From a virus, in IMG/VR virus record IMGVR_UViG_3300042294_000476, positions 1-31,938 of that record: a DNA stretch of 31,938 bases; one strand, 5' to 3'. The translations under genes were made by a program, and so were the position numbers. Below are positions 11,140 through 28,297 of the stretch, one piece after another. The notes under the pieces were generated by a model. The model did not search any database. It was given only the letters and a program-made list of their open reading frames with translations, and had not been told where the DNA came from. Each line of letters opens with the position of its first letter. The stretch's first letter is position 1.

Positions 11140-11673
11140 TTATTTGTTTATAGAGTTTTTGAATTTTTTAAGTGCTTCAAAGCGGTCGTTCTTTTTTGTA
11201 GACACAGGTGCTTTCAAGGGTTCTTCGCTTGGCAAGTCAGCAACCTTCTCAATCAGGTCAATCGCTTTGCTCATAGCTTCTTTGTGTTTGATGTTTGATG
11301 CAGTCAATGACTCAACCTTTGCAGACAATTCAGCGATTGCAGATTCCAACTTGGAAACAACATCATTGAATGCAGATACGGTTGCGAACTCTTCGGCTTC
11401 AATTTCAATCTCAACTTCAGGTTCTACGATTTCAGTAACAAAACCACCTTCAGTTGTAACCAACAAACCACCTTCAACCTCGTGAGTTGCGTCAGGTGCT
11501 GGAATGTTGCCTTCGGCAGTTTGAACGAAGATGGCAGTTCCTACCGCCAATTCGCCTTCGTACTCAATTACCGTTCCATCAGTCAAGGTGGCAGTTGCCA
11601 TCTCAACTTTGGTTTCTTCGTCCGAAAATCCCAACATCGTGCGGATTTCTTTCAATGTTTCTTTTGCGTTCAT
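11140..11673 (-). CDS. Scaffold-like capsid assembly protein
   Basis: The 177-residue product is highly acidic in its middle (EIVEPEVEIEIEAEEF) and has a coiled-coil segment (VVSKLESAIAELSAKVESL, about residues 105-125). It ends with a basic tail (KKNDRFEALKKFKNSINK). An acidic, helical protein with a basic C-terminus placed just before the major capsid gene is the usual form of a scaffold. The N-terminal part has a small beta domain (ATLTDGTVIEYEGELAVG) resembling short domains found next to prohead proteases. ATG 11673 is preferred to 11727, which would overlap the protease gene. Confidence 0.75.
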   Translation of the reverse strand: MNAKETLKEIRTMLGFSDEETKVEMATATLTDGTVIEYEGELAVGTAIFVQTAEGNIPAPDATHEVEGGLLVTTEGGFVTEIVEPEVEIEIEAEEFATVSAFNDVVSKLESAIAELSAKVESLTASNIKHKEAMSKAIDLIEKVADLPSEEPLKAPVSTKKNDRFEALKKFKNSINK

Positions 11674-11711
11674 TTGTATAAAATTAGAGTTTATGTTTCG
11701 GTGTTGCAATT

Positions 11712-24390: not shown

Positions 24391-24888
24391 TTACACCTCA
24401 ACAACTCCTCCTCCGTCTTGTAGATGGAGATGCTCTGCGTGAGTCCTTTCTTGCAAGTAATCACCCAATAAGGCAAGTGCTTTCGTATAATGTTGACTTG
24501 TGATTCGGTCATATTGGATTAGGTCGGTGTAAACATTGACGGAGTTAATGATAGATGAGTAATCCCGATGAAGGATGTTGCCAACCCCAGCGAAGGTCAT
24601 CTTCAAATGCTTCCTACATAAATAGCAAAACAAGTGCCGTGCATAGGAGATGTGTTGTTTGCGGTTGTGAGAAACGATTTGGTCAGGGGTGACATCGTAA
24701 ACTTGACAAGCCACTCGCATTGCATCCGTCCAGTCAGCTTCTATGTCGTTAATGTCGCAGCGTGGTCGGAGTATTTCATTCTTTAATCTCTTGACCTCTT
24801 GTGCGTGTGATGTGTGTAGTTGCTGAATGGTCAATCTCAATCTGCGAATCTCTTGCTTTAGGTTGTGGGTTACTTGGTATTGGTTCAT
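24391..24888 (-). CDS. DnaA domain IV-like replication initiation protein
   Basis: The 165-residue product has an N-terminal coiled coil (LKQEIRRLRLTIQQLHTSH). A C-terminal domain follows, reading QIVSHNRKQHISYARHLFCYLCRKHLKMTFAGVGNILHRDYSSIINSV. This fits the DnaA domain IV pattern SRKREIVxARQLAMYL...S-x3-IGxxFxRDHSTVxxA, which binds DnaA boxes. No AAA+ domain is present, so it resembles phage proteins that borrow only the origin-binding part. ATG 24888 overlaps the methyltransferase stop (ATGA). It lies near the DnaB gene, suggesting origin recognition for phage replication. Confidence 0.8.
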   Translation of the reverse strand: MNQYQVTHNLKQEIRRLRLTIQQLHTSHAQEVKRLKNEILRPRCDINDIEADWTDAMRVACQVYDVTPDQIVSHNRKQHISYARHLFCYLCRKHLKMTFAGVGNILHRDYSSIINSVNVYTDLIQYDRITSQHYTKALALLGDYLQERTHAEHLHLQDGGGVVEV

Positions 24889-25739
24889 AGGTCGTTGATA
24901 ATTTGGAATAGTTGATAAGCGATTTGTGGAACTATGGCGTTGCCATATGCCTTCATTGATTTTTGTCTCCATTGCGGAAAGGTAATTCCGTCCAATCTTT
25001 CGGAAAGCCCATCATTTCCGCTACAAAACGGGTGTTGAGTTGGGAAAACGCTCCAGGAATCTCCCTCATTGGGTTGCCGGATCCTCCCCATTCTGCTATT
25101 GAATGCTGACTGTTCTCGTTTCCAGCTGTTGGTGTCGGCAACATCCCCATTGCGACATAATGTTCCAAGTACATTGCCCGTGTTTTCCCTCCGTAGATTT
25201 TTTTGCGTTTGATTGTTTGCTCTTCCGTCACTTCTCTCGGACTTGAATTTGGAGTTGGCAGCAACGAACCAGCATCGGTCTCTTCGGTGTGGAGCGTTCT
25301 TGGCACAAGCTGGAATAATAAACGGTTGAACTTCGTACCCTTCACCTTCCAAGTCAAGGCACACTTGCTGGAATACCAATCCCCCATCAATAGTCGTGAT
25401 ACCAAAGACATTTTCAGCGATGACGAATGTGGGTTTAATTTCTTGAATTGCTCGTAGCATTTCGCCCCACAGGTAGCGTTCATCATCCGTGCCTTTCCTT
25501 TGACCAGCGTTGGAGAAGGGTTGACAAGGGAATCCCCCCGTGAGAATATCAATTGTGTTTGCATATTTTGTGAAATCAGTTTTACAAATGTCAATGTGAC
25601 TATCCGCATTTGGAAAGTGATAGTCCAATACTTTTCGTGGGAACTCCATCCATTCACAATGGAATACATTCTCCCATCCCATCCATTCGGCAGCAAGGTC
25701 AAAACCACCTATTCCGCTAAACAAAGAACCGTGTCTCAT
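24885..25739 (-). CDS. DNA cytosine-5 methyltransferase
   Basis: The 284-residue enzyme has motif I LFSGIGGFDLA (6-16), motif IV GGFPCQPFS with catalytic Cys72, and motif VI ENVFG (109-113). It also has motif VIII HRRDRCWF (151-158), a short variable target-recognition part (~160-240), and motif X GNAIVP (266-271). It methylates cytosine C5 in DNA, probably to evade host restriction; no partner nuclease is seen. The start at 25739 follows GAGGAGAAGTT-ATG and overlaps the helicase stop by ATGA. An upstream start at 25796 is unnecessary. A second frame through the gene carries other methyltransferase-like motifs (24953-25708). Confidence 0.92.
   Translation of the reverse strand: MRHGSLFSGIGGFDLAAEWMGWENVFHCEWMEFPRKVLDYHFPNADSHIDICKTDFTKYANTIDILTGGFPCQPFSNAGQRKGTDDERYLWGEMLRAIQEIKPTFVIAENVFGITTIDGGLVFQQVCLDLEGEGYEVQPFIIPACAKNAPHRRDRCWFVAANSKFKSERSDGRANNQTQKNLRRENTGNVLGTLCRNGDVADTNSWKREQSAFNSRMGRIRQPNEGDSWSVFPTQHPFCSGNDGLSERLDGITFPQWRQKSMKAYGNAIVPQIAYQLFQIINDL
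24953..25708 (-). other. Overlapping +1 frame inside the methyltransferase gene with family-like motifs
   Basis: A 251-codon open frame lies +1 relative to the methyltransferase. Its second half contains WYSSKCALTWKVKGTKFNRL, two LLPTP/MLPTP repeats (SLLPTPNSSPRE and GMLPTPTAGNEN) and LNTRFVAEMMGFPKDWTELPF. These three patterns are familiar from the variable and C-terminal parts of LPTP-type phage C5 methyltransferases (LNPxFVEWLMGFPxGWT). The first half has no such likeness. The frame ends before motif X, which lies in the main frame. It may be a relic, an alternative recognition domain reached by frameshift, or a shadow kept open by the main frame. Confidence 0.4.
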
Positions 25740-26965
25740 AACTTCTCCTCGTACATTGTCCGACTGCCTGTGAAGGTTGTGGGGATGGTGCAACACTCTC
25801 CGTTGCGATTCTTTGCGATGATTAACTCTGCATCTTCAACTTCAGGTTTCTCTTGCTCATAGTAACTTGGTCGGAATGGGAACATCACGATGTCGGCATC
25901 TTGCTCAATTGCACCTGACTCTCTCAAGTCACTCAATAAAGGTCGTTTATCTGCTCTCTCTTCGCTTTTGCGTGATAATTGGGCAAGGACTATCACCGTC
26001 ATTTTTAACTCCTTTGCAAGTAGTTTCAAACCTCTTGAGATTTCTGCAATCTCTTGTTCACGATTTGCTTTTGTACCCTTCACTAACTGGATGTAATCAA
26101 TCACCAATAGGTCAAGTCCTTTGCGTGATTTGTGCAACTTCGCCTTCGCTTTGATTTGTGCGATGGATGTGTCAACATCATCGTCAATGTAGAACTCAAT
26201 TGTTTGGTTGTTTGCAGAGTTGATGACTTTGTCAATTTCTATTTGTTGCAATCTGCCGTTGCGAATCTTCCAATTCTCTATGTCACCAATCAATGAAATA
26301 TATCGTTTGGCAAGTTGGTCATTGCTCATCTCAAGAGACAAGAACAAAGCTTTGTAATTGTACTTTGCAAAATCCTTTGTGAGTGTGAGAGCGATTGCAG
26401 TTTTTCCCATACCCGGTCTCCCAGCGATTACAATCAAATCCCCTTCGTTGTATCCACCAATGTACTTGTCAAGATAACGCCATCCAGTTTGTTTGCCTGT
26501 TAACGCACCACCGTTCAAACTATTCTCCACGATGTGATCCACAACCTTGTTTGTCACCTTGACAATTGACTCTGGTTCTTTGTGTGTTGAAAATGTCGTC
26601 TCTTCCAAAATGCTTTGAATATCCTTGACCATATCAGGCAACTCGTTTGATAAGTCCAAATGGGTTAACCTATCAACTAAATTCCGTTTGATGTAGTTGT
26701 ATTCTAAAGTCAGTAAGTGTGTACGCAAATCAATGTCACTTGCATTTTGTTGTAGCGTGATGACATCAATCAATTCCTTGCGTTCAAAATGCGGAATCAA
26801 TGTGAGATAGTCAATGGCTTCGTTGTTCAAATACATCTGCGTAATTACACCAACAATTTTCTTGCACAAAGTATCTTCAAACCAATTCAAGTTTATTCGG
26901 GGCAAGTAATGACGCTTATCGTTGTGGTAAAGGATGTTGCTAATTATTAATCGTTCGTTGCTCAT
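25736..26965 (-). CDS. Replicative DNA helicase, DnaB-like
   Basis: The 409-residue protein has an N-terminal helical DnaB domain (residues 1-110, with ERLIISNILYHND) and a RecA-like ATPase domain. Walker A is GRPGMGKT (182-189), Walker B is LLVIDYIQL near 285, followed by QLSRKSEERADKRPLLSDLRESGAIEQDADIV and the late IAKNRNGECCTI. It unwinds the phage replication fork as a hexamer. The context is CACTATGAGC, without a Shine-Dalgarno site. It overlaps the loader-like gene by 4 bases and the methyltransferase by 4. Confidence 0.95.
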   Translation of the reverse strand: MSNERLIISNILYHNDKRHYLPRINLNWFEDTLCKKIVGVITQMYLNNEAIDYLTLIPHFERKELIDVITLQQNASDIDLRTHLLTLEYNYIKRNLVDRLTHLDLSNELPDMVKDIQSILEETTFSTHKEPESIVKVTNKVVDHIVENSLNGGALTGKQTGWRYLDKYIGGYNEGDLIVIAGRPGMGKTAIALTLTKDFAKYNYKALFLSLEMSNDQLAKRYISLIGDIENWKIRNGRLQQIEIDKVINSANNQTIEFYIDDDVDTSIAQIKAKAKLHKSRKGLDLLVIDYIQLVKGTKANREQEIAEISRGLKLLAKELKMTVIVLAQLSRKSEERADKRPLLSDLRESGAIEQDADIVMFPFRPSYYEQEKPEVEDAELIIAKNRNGECCTIPTTFTGSRTMYEEKL

Positions 26966-27516
26966 AGTGTTGCAAGTTTAGGTTTGTTTGTTGTGACTTT
27001 CAAATTATTTGTTTTCCAAGTCCTAACGGATGCTTTCCAGTCCTTCATCTTGACTTTGCCGACCATCCATCCATTTGCTTCGTAATGGTTTAACCAGTTC
27101 TCTGCGATGTCGTTCATCCCTTGTTCGCTCATATACTCTTTGAGTTGTTCAATGGTAGGTTTGACAAAACCTTTTATTTCTTTTTTACCTGTTACACTAC
27201 CACTTACACTTACACTTACACTATCGGCATTTTTGGTATCATTTGGTATGCCACTTGATGCGGTCGCATCCCACCGCTTACGAGCGTTGTCCTGATTACG
27301 CTTTCGGATGTCCTCGTATTTCTGCAAATCTCTCTTGAGTGATTGCTTGATGGGTTCAAATGCAATCCGTGTGATGACATTCTCCGTTTGTGGTTCTTGG
27401 TCGTTGACATAACGCAAGATGTGTTTTAACAAATCCCCAGCTTGTTCATCGGTTAACTGTTCAACCGTGTGTATCAGGTCGCAGTAAAGCAAAAATGATT
27501 TCTTATCGGTTGCCAT
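26962..27516 (-). CDS. Replication protein, DUF6291-like / helicase-loader-like
   Basis: The 184-residue protein begins DKKSFLLYCDLIHTVEQLTDEQAGDLLKHILRYVND, an N-terminal form seen in phage replication proteins (DUF6291 type). A linker SVSVSVSGSVTGK encoded by a 6-base tandem repeat follows. The C-terminal end is IAENWLNHYEANGWMVGKVKMKDWKASVRTW, resembling DnaT-like or loader C-domains. Just upstream of DnaB it probably loads the helicase. ATG 27516 is preferred to 27558. It overlaps the HNH gene by 14 bases. Confidence 0.75.
   Translation of the reverse strand: MATDKKSFLLYCDLIHTVEQLTDEQAGDLLKHILRYVNDQEPQTENVITRIAFEPIKQSLKRDLQKYEDIRKRNQDNARKRWDATASSGIPNDTKNADSVSVSVSGSVTGKKEIKGFVKPTIEQLKEYMSEQGMNDIAENWLNHYEANGWMVGKVKMKDWKASVRTWKTNNLKVTTNKPKLATL
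27190..27222. repeat. Short tandem repeat encoding the SVSVSVS linker
   Basis: The unit ACTTAC (plus strand) is repeated about three times around 27200-27218, with imperfect copies beside it. It encodes serine-valine dipeptides in the linker of the replication protein. As the unit is 6 bases, copy changes alter linker length without breaking the frame. Confidence 0.7.
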
Positions 27517-28003
27517 TGGTTGTATAAAAAAAGCGTTGAAGGGGTGATTTTTTAACAATCCTCATCCGATGTTTGTGTCTACATTCACCAATTGAACGAG
27601 CTGCTTCAGCAATAGATATAAATTGTAATCCTGTCAATATATCAATTACTGGTTTAACTCTAATGTCTAATTTATTTATTATTGCGTGTTCAACATTTTC
27701 TTGATGAGTCATCCATTCAAGATTATCAATGTGATTATTTTTTTTATTGCCATCTTTATGATTAACGGTCAATTTATTTTCATCGTTTATAATAAAAGTT
27801 TGTGCAACTAACCTATGTATATAATAAGTTTTTGAAGTTTTATTTCTGCTTAATGAAATTTGTAGATACCCATTTTGATGTGTGCTGGGTTTCAAAATAA
27901 TTTCTTTACCTTTTTTGTAACTCTTGACCCTTCCGTGACTGGAGATGTGGTACTCACCGTTGCTATCAGCAACCGCTTTCCAAATTTCTTGTTGTGTGTT
28001 CAT
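27503..28003 (-). CDS. Free-standing homing endonuclease, NUMOD4-HNH
   Basis: The 166-residue product has a NUMOD4 module (IWKAVADSNGEYHISSHGRVKS, residues 7-28) and an HNH_3 core (VNHKDGNKKNNHIDNLEWMTHQENVEHA). A C-terminal DNA-binding segment follows, resembling NUMOD1 (PVIDILTGLQFISIAEAARSIG). Such enzymes cut phage-like DNA and spread by repair. It stands among replication genes, upstream of the loader-like gene, and no split gene or intron boundary was found beside it. A structured leader (28017-28069) precedes it. Its codon use is more AT-rich than that of the neighbours, in line with mobility. Confidence 0.88.
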   Translation of the reverse strand: MNTQQEIWKAVADSNGEYHISSHGRVKSYKKGKEIILKPSTHQNGYLQISLSRNKTSKTYYIHRLVAQTFIINDENKLTVNHKDGNKKNNHIDNLEWMTHQENVEHAIINKLDIRVKPVIDILTGLQFISIAEAARSIGECRHKHRMRIVKKSPLQRFFYTTNGNR

Positions 28004-28016
28004 TTTTGCTGCGAAT

Positions 28017-28069
28017 AAAAAAAGCCCATCAGTATGACAGTGGTCGCAGCACCTATCATCCCAACGGGC
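28017..28069 (-). ncRNA. Structured leader / terminator-like hairpin before the HNH gene
   Basis: On the minus strand, GCCCGTTGG (28069-28061) can pair with CTGATGGGC (28032-28024) over 9 bases, with G-U wobbles. Inside, ATGATA pairs with TGTCAT (6 bases) and GTG with CAC, leaving the loop CTGCGAC. Seven T follow (28023-28017). This is a long rho-independent-type hairpin. The loop sequence GCTGCGA is complementary to TCGCAGC both upstream (28099-28093) and just before the HNH start codon (28014-28008), so alternative pairings are possible. It could be an attenuator, a switch or a plain terminator. Confidence 0.65.
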
Positions 28070-28135
28070 AAAAATCTTGAAAGTTTACGAGAGCTGCGAA
28101 ATCTCAACTTCTTGTACGAAGATAGCGATTTAGTT

Positions 28136-28297
28136 TCATTGTTTCAACTTAAAATCTTTTTTGATCCGTGAATAAAGATACCGGGCTTTCCACTCACTGC
28201 ACCCCATACGCTCTGCGATTAATCTCCAGCAATGGTGATAGTCCTCACGAAGGATGGCGATTGCCCACATCAGGTTGTAGGTGCTTTGTTTAGTCAT
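28136..28297 (-). CDS. Small HTH-like protein, 53 residues
   Basis: The product reads MTKQSTYNLMWAIAILREDY, then HHCWRLIAERMGCSEWKARYLYSRIKKDFKLKQ. The second half fits a helix-turn-helix (LIAERMG-C-SEWKARYLYSRI). The start at 28297 follows GGAGGT-AACA-ATG, which is encoded by the last codons (FGGNND) of the upstream gene; the two overlap by 8 bases. A longer frame to 28363 lacks a suitable start. It may be a small regulator of replication genes. A 132-base gap with the structured leader follows. Confidence 0.7.
   Translation of the reverse strand: MTKQSTYNLMWAIAILREDYHHCWRLIAERMGCSEWKARYLYSRIKKDFKLKQ

Follow-up and report, generated by a model that had tools for sequence, protein, structure and literature searches.

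The P4 CI and P1 c4 RNAs carry one stretch that is complementary to both upstream and downstream copies in the phage leader, and the gene downstream of the pT181 attenuator is reportedly the replication initiator repC. The pT181 attenuator is controlled by antisense RNA; in its leader, a sensing hairpin at the 5' end is combined with loop-loop kissing and with an intrinsic terminator ahead of the gene (PMC4878617). In the I-complex plasmids (ColIb-P9, IncB and IncK), pairing likewise involves loops of the initiator leader, with specificity set by loop nucleotides (PMC10724649). Among prophages, the Gifsy-1 IsrK RNA derives from a phage leader with a terminator; a single promoter yields both a short and a read-through form, and the former acts in trans on the latter (PMC4825925). 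The put RNAs of phage HK022 are about 70 nt long with two stem-loops, and putL is located just after a phage early promoter and controls termination in cis (PMC9378689).

The locus considered here lies in a window of 31,938 nucleotides, positions 1 to 31,938 of the IMG/VR virus record IMGVR_UViG_3300042294_000476. The original prediction placed in it a long hairpin followed by T7, the loop of which could pair with a TCGCAGC copy on either side; hairpin, T7, loop and both flanking copies were all confirmed to the nucleotide on the minus strand, to which the leader coordinates below refer. The leader runs in the order promoter, hairpin 1, 10-nt linker, long terminator hairpin, T7 and start codon. 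The putative Bacteroidota-type promoter (28117-28147) consists of TTG at 28147-28145, 20 nt and TATCTTCG at 28124-28117, resembling the Bacteroidota consensus of TAnnTTTG at -7 and TTTG at -33 (PMC7366714), and TAnnTT(T/C)G precedes hairpin 1 in all 21 inspected relatives found by protein search. Hairpin 1 (28080-28111) reads GAAGTT-GAGA-TTTCGCAGC-TCTC-GTA-AACTTT from 28111 to 28080, with an outer stem (28111-28106/28085-28080), an inner stem (28105-28102/28092-28089), a loop (28101-28093) and a 3-nt bulge on the 3' side. The upstream TCGCAGC copy (28093-28099) is thus itself a hairpin loop just after a promoter, neither of which the original prediction contained. The linker CAAGATTTTT (28070-28079) leads to hairpin 2 (28024-28069; -21.2 kcal/mol, 17 pairs), the stem-loop of a predicted intrinsic terminator, which displays kissing loop 2, GCTGCGA (28044-28050), complementary to loop 1, and is followed by the U tract (T7, 28017-28023), a third TCGCAGC copy (28008-28014) and the ATG of an HNH gene (28003-28001). 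TCGCAGC occurs seven times on both strands of the window, compared to 1.96 expected, and three of these copies are in the leader. Since the single-sequence fold of the leader is no better than that of shuffled sequences (z = -0.59), the case for the element rests on comparison.

Relatives were gathered from IMG/VR by scanning for the DUF6291, HNH and 52-aa proteins of this locus. The same locus recurs in many IMG/VR contigs, but the element at this site differs, even where the 52-aa gene ahead of it is 100% identical. The layout is shared by the IMG/VR relatives and six groups of cultured flavobacterial phages, with more than 20 distinct loop pairs that are complementary in every case. Loop 1/loop 2 pairs from IMG/VR include TCGCAGC/GCTGCGA, TGCGGG/CCCGCA, GTGCGAG/CTCGCAC, GGGGAAG/CTTCCCC, GTTGCAGT/ACTGCAAC, GTAAGAG/CTCTTAC, GTCGCAT/ATGCGAC and ATTGCGG/CCGCAAT, among others. 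A pattern scan requiring the promoter, TTGCC and GGCT7ATG, which fixes the distance from T7 to ATG and makes no demand on loop complementarity, returned 37 unique sequences, one a false positive without a hairpin. The loops are complementary in all 36 hairpin-forming elements when judged by eye, with G-U pairs and register shifts allowed, and automatic counting gives Watson-Crick runs of 4-7, reaching at least 6 in 27 of the 36. Compensated changes are also found between close relatives, as in L141 (GTAGGAG/CTCCTAC) and L136 (GTAAGAG/CTCTTAC), which have an identical stem 2, and in a second such pair, L163/L124. One variant layout was observed in L174 (41-158, minus strand): there, the sequence complementary to loop 1 (GGTAAGAGC) seems to occupy the 3' side of a terminator hairpin that is longer, rather than its terminal loop.

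Alignment of 55 members provides the main evidence for the structure. The covariance model behind this alignment contained the two hairpins and not the loop-loop pairing, and divergent members were misaligned by MAFFT, with several omitted from the first model. All seven pairs of the kissing helix show changes on both sides, with 89.4% of cells paired across the 55 sequences; the same is true of all six pairs of the hairpin 1 inner stem (89.7% paired), while the outer stem covaries with more exceptions. In hairpin 2, 18 of 19 pairs covary and one is invariant. The linker is conserved across the aligned members as an AAAGAnnTTT-like sequence, and a T run follows hairpin 2 in the relatives listed. 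Across the whole structure, 90.6% of cells are paired, compared to 39-46% (at most 46.2%) when the structure is slid along the alignment, and the covariation score was reached by none of 500 shuffles. Between the two loops of a member, the longest Watson-Crick run averages 6.49; re-pairing the loops among members lowers this mean to 3.24 (maximum of 1000 shuffles, 4.09). Both the shuffles and the slid controls keep the relatedness among members; this retention in the slid controls, together with the many differing loop types, argues against an artefact of relatedness. In the most distant members, for which covariance-model E-values are weak (0.02-0.9), independent support comes from the loop match. 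On these comparisons, a two-hairpin structure with a loop-loop helix is near certain.

The types of pair indicate the molecule on which selection acts. Stem cells contain 198 G-U and 12 A-C combinations, and as G-U far outnumbers A-C, selection acts on RNA of the leader's strand. The kissing cells comprise 301 Watson-Crick pairs, three G-U and no A-C, which shows near-strict Watson-Crick pairing between the loops. A DNA-level element, such as an origin hairpin or a target of the HNH enzyme, would suit a position at a replication locus adjoining homing endonuclease genes, but has almost no probability in view of this G-U excess on the leader strand, the conservation of promoter and U tract, and the many members that lack HNH. 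The same vanishing chance attaches to an ordinary terminator serving the upstream 52-aa gene, its complementarity being fortuitous: the hairpin and U tract alone do look like one, but compensatory changes across about 20 loop classes refute this explanation. The proposal of a regulated leader instead of a plain terminator thus stands insofar as the leader RNA is conserved, and compensatory changes strongly support pairing of the terminator loop with the upstream copy, the structured relatives keeping the complementarity with different sequences. It requires revision in that the partner is the loop of a second hairpin and the downstream copy is class-specific.

That downstream copy had been proposed to hide the start codon by pairing with the loop. 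It is found in all class A members seen, and partly in class B, of about 21 loop classes, is absent from most of the others, and recurs as a 6-nt match in L052; relatives that keep the hairpins and the kissing have lost it, the observation that was expected to speak against the proposal. The third copy probably lies outside the conserved element, and its candidacy as a general feature was rejected, the class B match being mostly the constant ATG. Nor is disruption of the terminator by pairing with the upstream copy supported in the form originally envisaged: hairpin 1, hairpin 2 and the helix between their loops are conserved together. Only loop nucleotides pair with the first copy, so the kiss does not directly replace pairs of the terminator stem, and loop-loop pairing by itself removes none of them.

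The assignment of the element to the HNH gene is likewise not supported. In the window, the leader is followed by a NUMOD4-HNH homing-type endonuclease gene (27503-28003, minus strand; Pfam PF07463, 1.8e-13; PF13392, 6.9e-10), then by a gene for a DUF6291 protein, a putative replication initiator or occupant of the helicase-loader position (26962-27516, minus strand; PF19808, 2.9e-25), and a DnaB-like helicase in the same operon (25736-26965, minus strand; PF03796, 8.5e-87). The HNH gene stands between leader and initiator here and is missing from many relatives, in which the leader abuts DUF6291 or another initiator. DUF6291 is the commonest gene after the leader and is labelled 'replication protein' in the elemo and Harreka phages, both from culture. 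It is the replication-initiator operon to which the element belongs; the HNH gene, in the window phage and some related phages, is a passenger lying between the leader and the initiator. The 52-aa ORF upstream of the leader (window 28139-28294) is 88-100% identical across contigs with differing leader class and HNH, from which leader and HNH look like an exchanged module; HNH proteins are only ~50% identical among contigs sharing a near-identical 52-aa ORF. In L055 and L068, a mini-ORF (ATG CGG AAA AAA TGA) directly follows the U tract before HNH, and its stop overlaps the HNH start (ATGA), making translational coupling to HNH possible. Elsewhere in the window, positions 24391-24972 encode a phage protein whose C-terminal part is a DnaA DNA-binding domain (Bac_DnaA_C, 2.5e-15); the annotations of Cellulophaga phages phi13:2 and phi19:3 include similar DnaA-like genes.

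The element is present upstream in 65 of 68 DUF6291 loci: a strict automatic rule finds 60, and inspection adds five with G-U pairs or divergent sequence. It is absent from L060, L064 and L080. Cultured carriers include Muminvirus tooticki and Lillamyvirus (lillamy), with loops GTGAGACG/CGTCTCAC, the elemo phage (TGAGAGC/GCTCTCA), Cellulophaga phi13:2 and phi19:3 (CTCTCACAA/TTGTGAGAG), Olleya phage Harreka_1 (GTGGTGG/CCACCAC) and the Flavobacterium 11b phage (CGGGCAGG/CCTGCCCG). Most contigs have a single strong copy. In tooticki6-1, a second self-kissing putative terminator (L184 about 1097-1190; record 11590-11683), with loops GTCGTCG/CGACGAC unrelated to those of the replication leader, lies directly before the NUMOD4 HNH endonuclease gene gp032. 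The leader also precedes phrog_270 replication initiation or DnaD-like helicase loader genes in L173, L127 and L123, and with loops GGGCAG/CTGCCC it precedes an initiator of another family in L322-L325. These seven loci appear to keep the leader and change the initiator family, consistent with initiator swapping at a fixed regulatory site; from translations inspected by eye, the gene next after the initiator is C5 methylase-like in L173 and encodes a DnaB-like helicase in L127.

A descriptor of the kiss had no matches in 0.87 Mb of bacterial loci or in 0.54 Mb of shuffled sequence; a looser pattern was run on 84,980 bacterial genomes and, among the matches listed, none passed the descriptor. 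The best covariance-model matches in bacterial loci were rejected as chance, the element not being visible on inspection, and the model found no match in 396 genomes of one flavobacterial family, which is weak evidence given the stricter filters applied; DUF6291 was found in only two of these genomes, with no element nearby. No element was seen at the distant DUF6291 genes of Vibrio phage 1.240.O, Shewanella phage ZP9 and a human-faecal phage. Ten member loci (57 kb) had no match to Rfam release 15 at the gathering threshold, permissive Rfam searches with three members gave only sub-threshold chance matches, and no earlier description of the leader was found in the literature, as covered by open-licence papers.

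The position of the element relative to the genes it precedes bears on its function. In most relatives, 0-13 nt separate the T run from the start codon (full range 0 to 43 nt), and in most protein-found relatives without HNH the distance is 0-5 nt. This proximity, and the retention of the downstream position even where the initiator family changes, point to control in cis. They render improbable an autonomous small RNA gene acting on other phage or host RNAs, merely placed conveniently before initiators. Such a gene would account for the promoter, 5' hairpin and intrinsic terminator, which define a compact ~95-nt transcript like canonical Bacteroides sRNAs (PMC7366714), but no conserved unpaired seed is seen besides the kissing loops. 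Slightly less probable still is a translational leader, in which the kiss or hairpin gates ribosome access to the start codon and termination is minor. In many relatives, a stable hairpin does end about 7 nt short of the start codon, and translation of I-complex plasmid repZ is reported to be controlled by an RNA pseudoknot or kissing switch (PMC10724649). The variable distance to the start codon and the T run straight after a G+C-rich stem base, the signature of an intrinsic terminator, argue against it.

The leader probably controls the replication-initiator operon of flavobacterial phages by transcription attenuation, with the terminator loop kissing the 5' hairpin. A dedicated promoter would start the transcript immediately before hairpin 1, with a 5' end expected within about 10 nt after TATATTTG; hairpin 1 would expose a loop of about 7 nt, and the two loops would kiss once that of the long terminator hairpin emerges. 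The default product would be an RNA of ~95 nt ending at the U tract, while read-through would yield the initiator mRNA, in the window covering HNH, DUF6291 and DnaB. Because most relatives have no room for another promoter between the T run and the start codon, expression from the leader promoter would depend on read-through, the probability of which the kiss would set. We infer that transcription starts and mainly terminates at the leader and that read-through is regulated, with the initiator as the regulated product. Regulation would follow a cis or a trans route. In cis, the kiss would compete with closure of the full terminator base and the hairpin 1 outer stem; neither the folds nor the consensus structure showed an antiterminator pairing with the terminator 5' arm, and none that covaries was found. 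In trans, terminated copies would kiss nascent leaders and thereby provide feedback on replication. With stem 1 of about 11 bp, a linker of 9 nt (17 nt with the outer stem open) and stem 2 of 18 bp, a coarse geometric estimate suggests that a coaxial cis kiss, a complete terminator and the hairpin 1 outer stem do not comfortably coexist; the kiss would therefore be either a cis switch or favoured in trans.

A trans-acting self-antisense, in which loops of the terminated RNA kiss new leaders from other genome copies and switch the initiator on or off by copy number in a loop-specific manner, akin to plasmid copy control or P4/P1 RNA immunity, is unlikely but has several points in its favor. Fully Watson-Crick loops of 7 nt are typical of intermolecular kissing, as exemplified by ColE1 RNAI/RNAII, and the coarse geometry strains a cis kiss. 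The variety of loop specificities recalls incompatibility types, which loop nucleotides determine (PMC10724649), and IsrK offers a prophage precedent for a terminated RNA acting in trans on the read-through form of the same RNA (PMC4825925). Against this, the two-copy phage tooticki has non-matching loops, and the loops are not clearly diverging faster than the stems, leaving diversifying selection on them unsupported. Moomin phages are reported to be virulent (PMC7077304) and no phage integrase was found in the window, though the record may be a fragment; prophage immunity is thus not a general role of the leader. More tentatively than attenuation itself, the element may represent a new class of attenuator, whose terminator hairpin carries its own antisense and kisses a sensing hairpin at the 5' end of that transcript or of a sister copy, which would set the timing and frequency with which a virulent phage's initiator fires, with dozens of orthogonal loop specificities in nature.

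A structured RNA absent from Rfam thus occurs in nearly every examined flavobacterial phage with a DUF6291-type replication module, cultured isolates included. RNA-based control, of which most known cases come from plasmids, would with it extend to the replication operon of Bacteroidota tailed phages, where regulation is little known, and its matched loop versions point to built-in on/off control of the start of viral DNA replication. The more than 20 natural loop pairs could also be used directly to test loop-loop recognition and orthogonal RNA switches.

Compared by described features, and with no Rfam match, the leader is best classed as a putative RNA attenuator outside the pT181, I-complex, IsrK and put families. 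P4 CI and P1 c4 have targets on both sides and belong to a temperate phage or satellite, whereas the downstream copy of the leader is not conserved, being absent in most classes, and its carriers include virulent phages. The HK022 put RNAs work by binding RNA polymerase, without a terminator tract of their own after them, and loop-loop covariation is not known to be described for them (PMC9378689). IsrK differs in structure, genes (orf45-anrP) and hosts, and trans action is a proposal for the phage leader. The I-complex plasmids share loop pairing in an initiator leader, but control translation through the antisense RNAI, and the pairing does not involve a terminator hairpin. The pT181 leader kisses a separate antisense RNA, and its terminator has a 5' arm to which an anti-terminator sequence pairs, whereas in the phage leader the complementary loop is the terminator's own, on the same transcript; no sequence relation is claimed. 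As the phage leader appears, like that of pT181, to be an initiator leader ending in a predicted intrinsic terminator, the pT181 attenuator is, by analogy, the system whose working it would most resemble.
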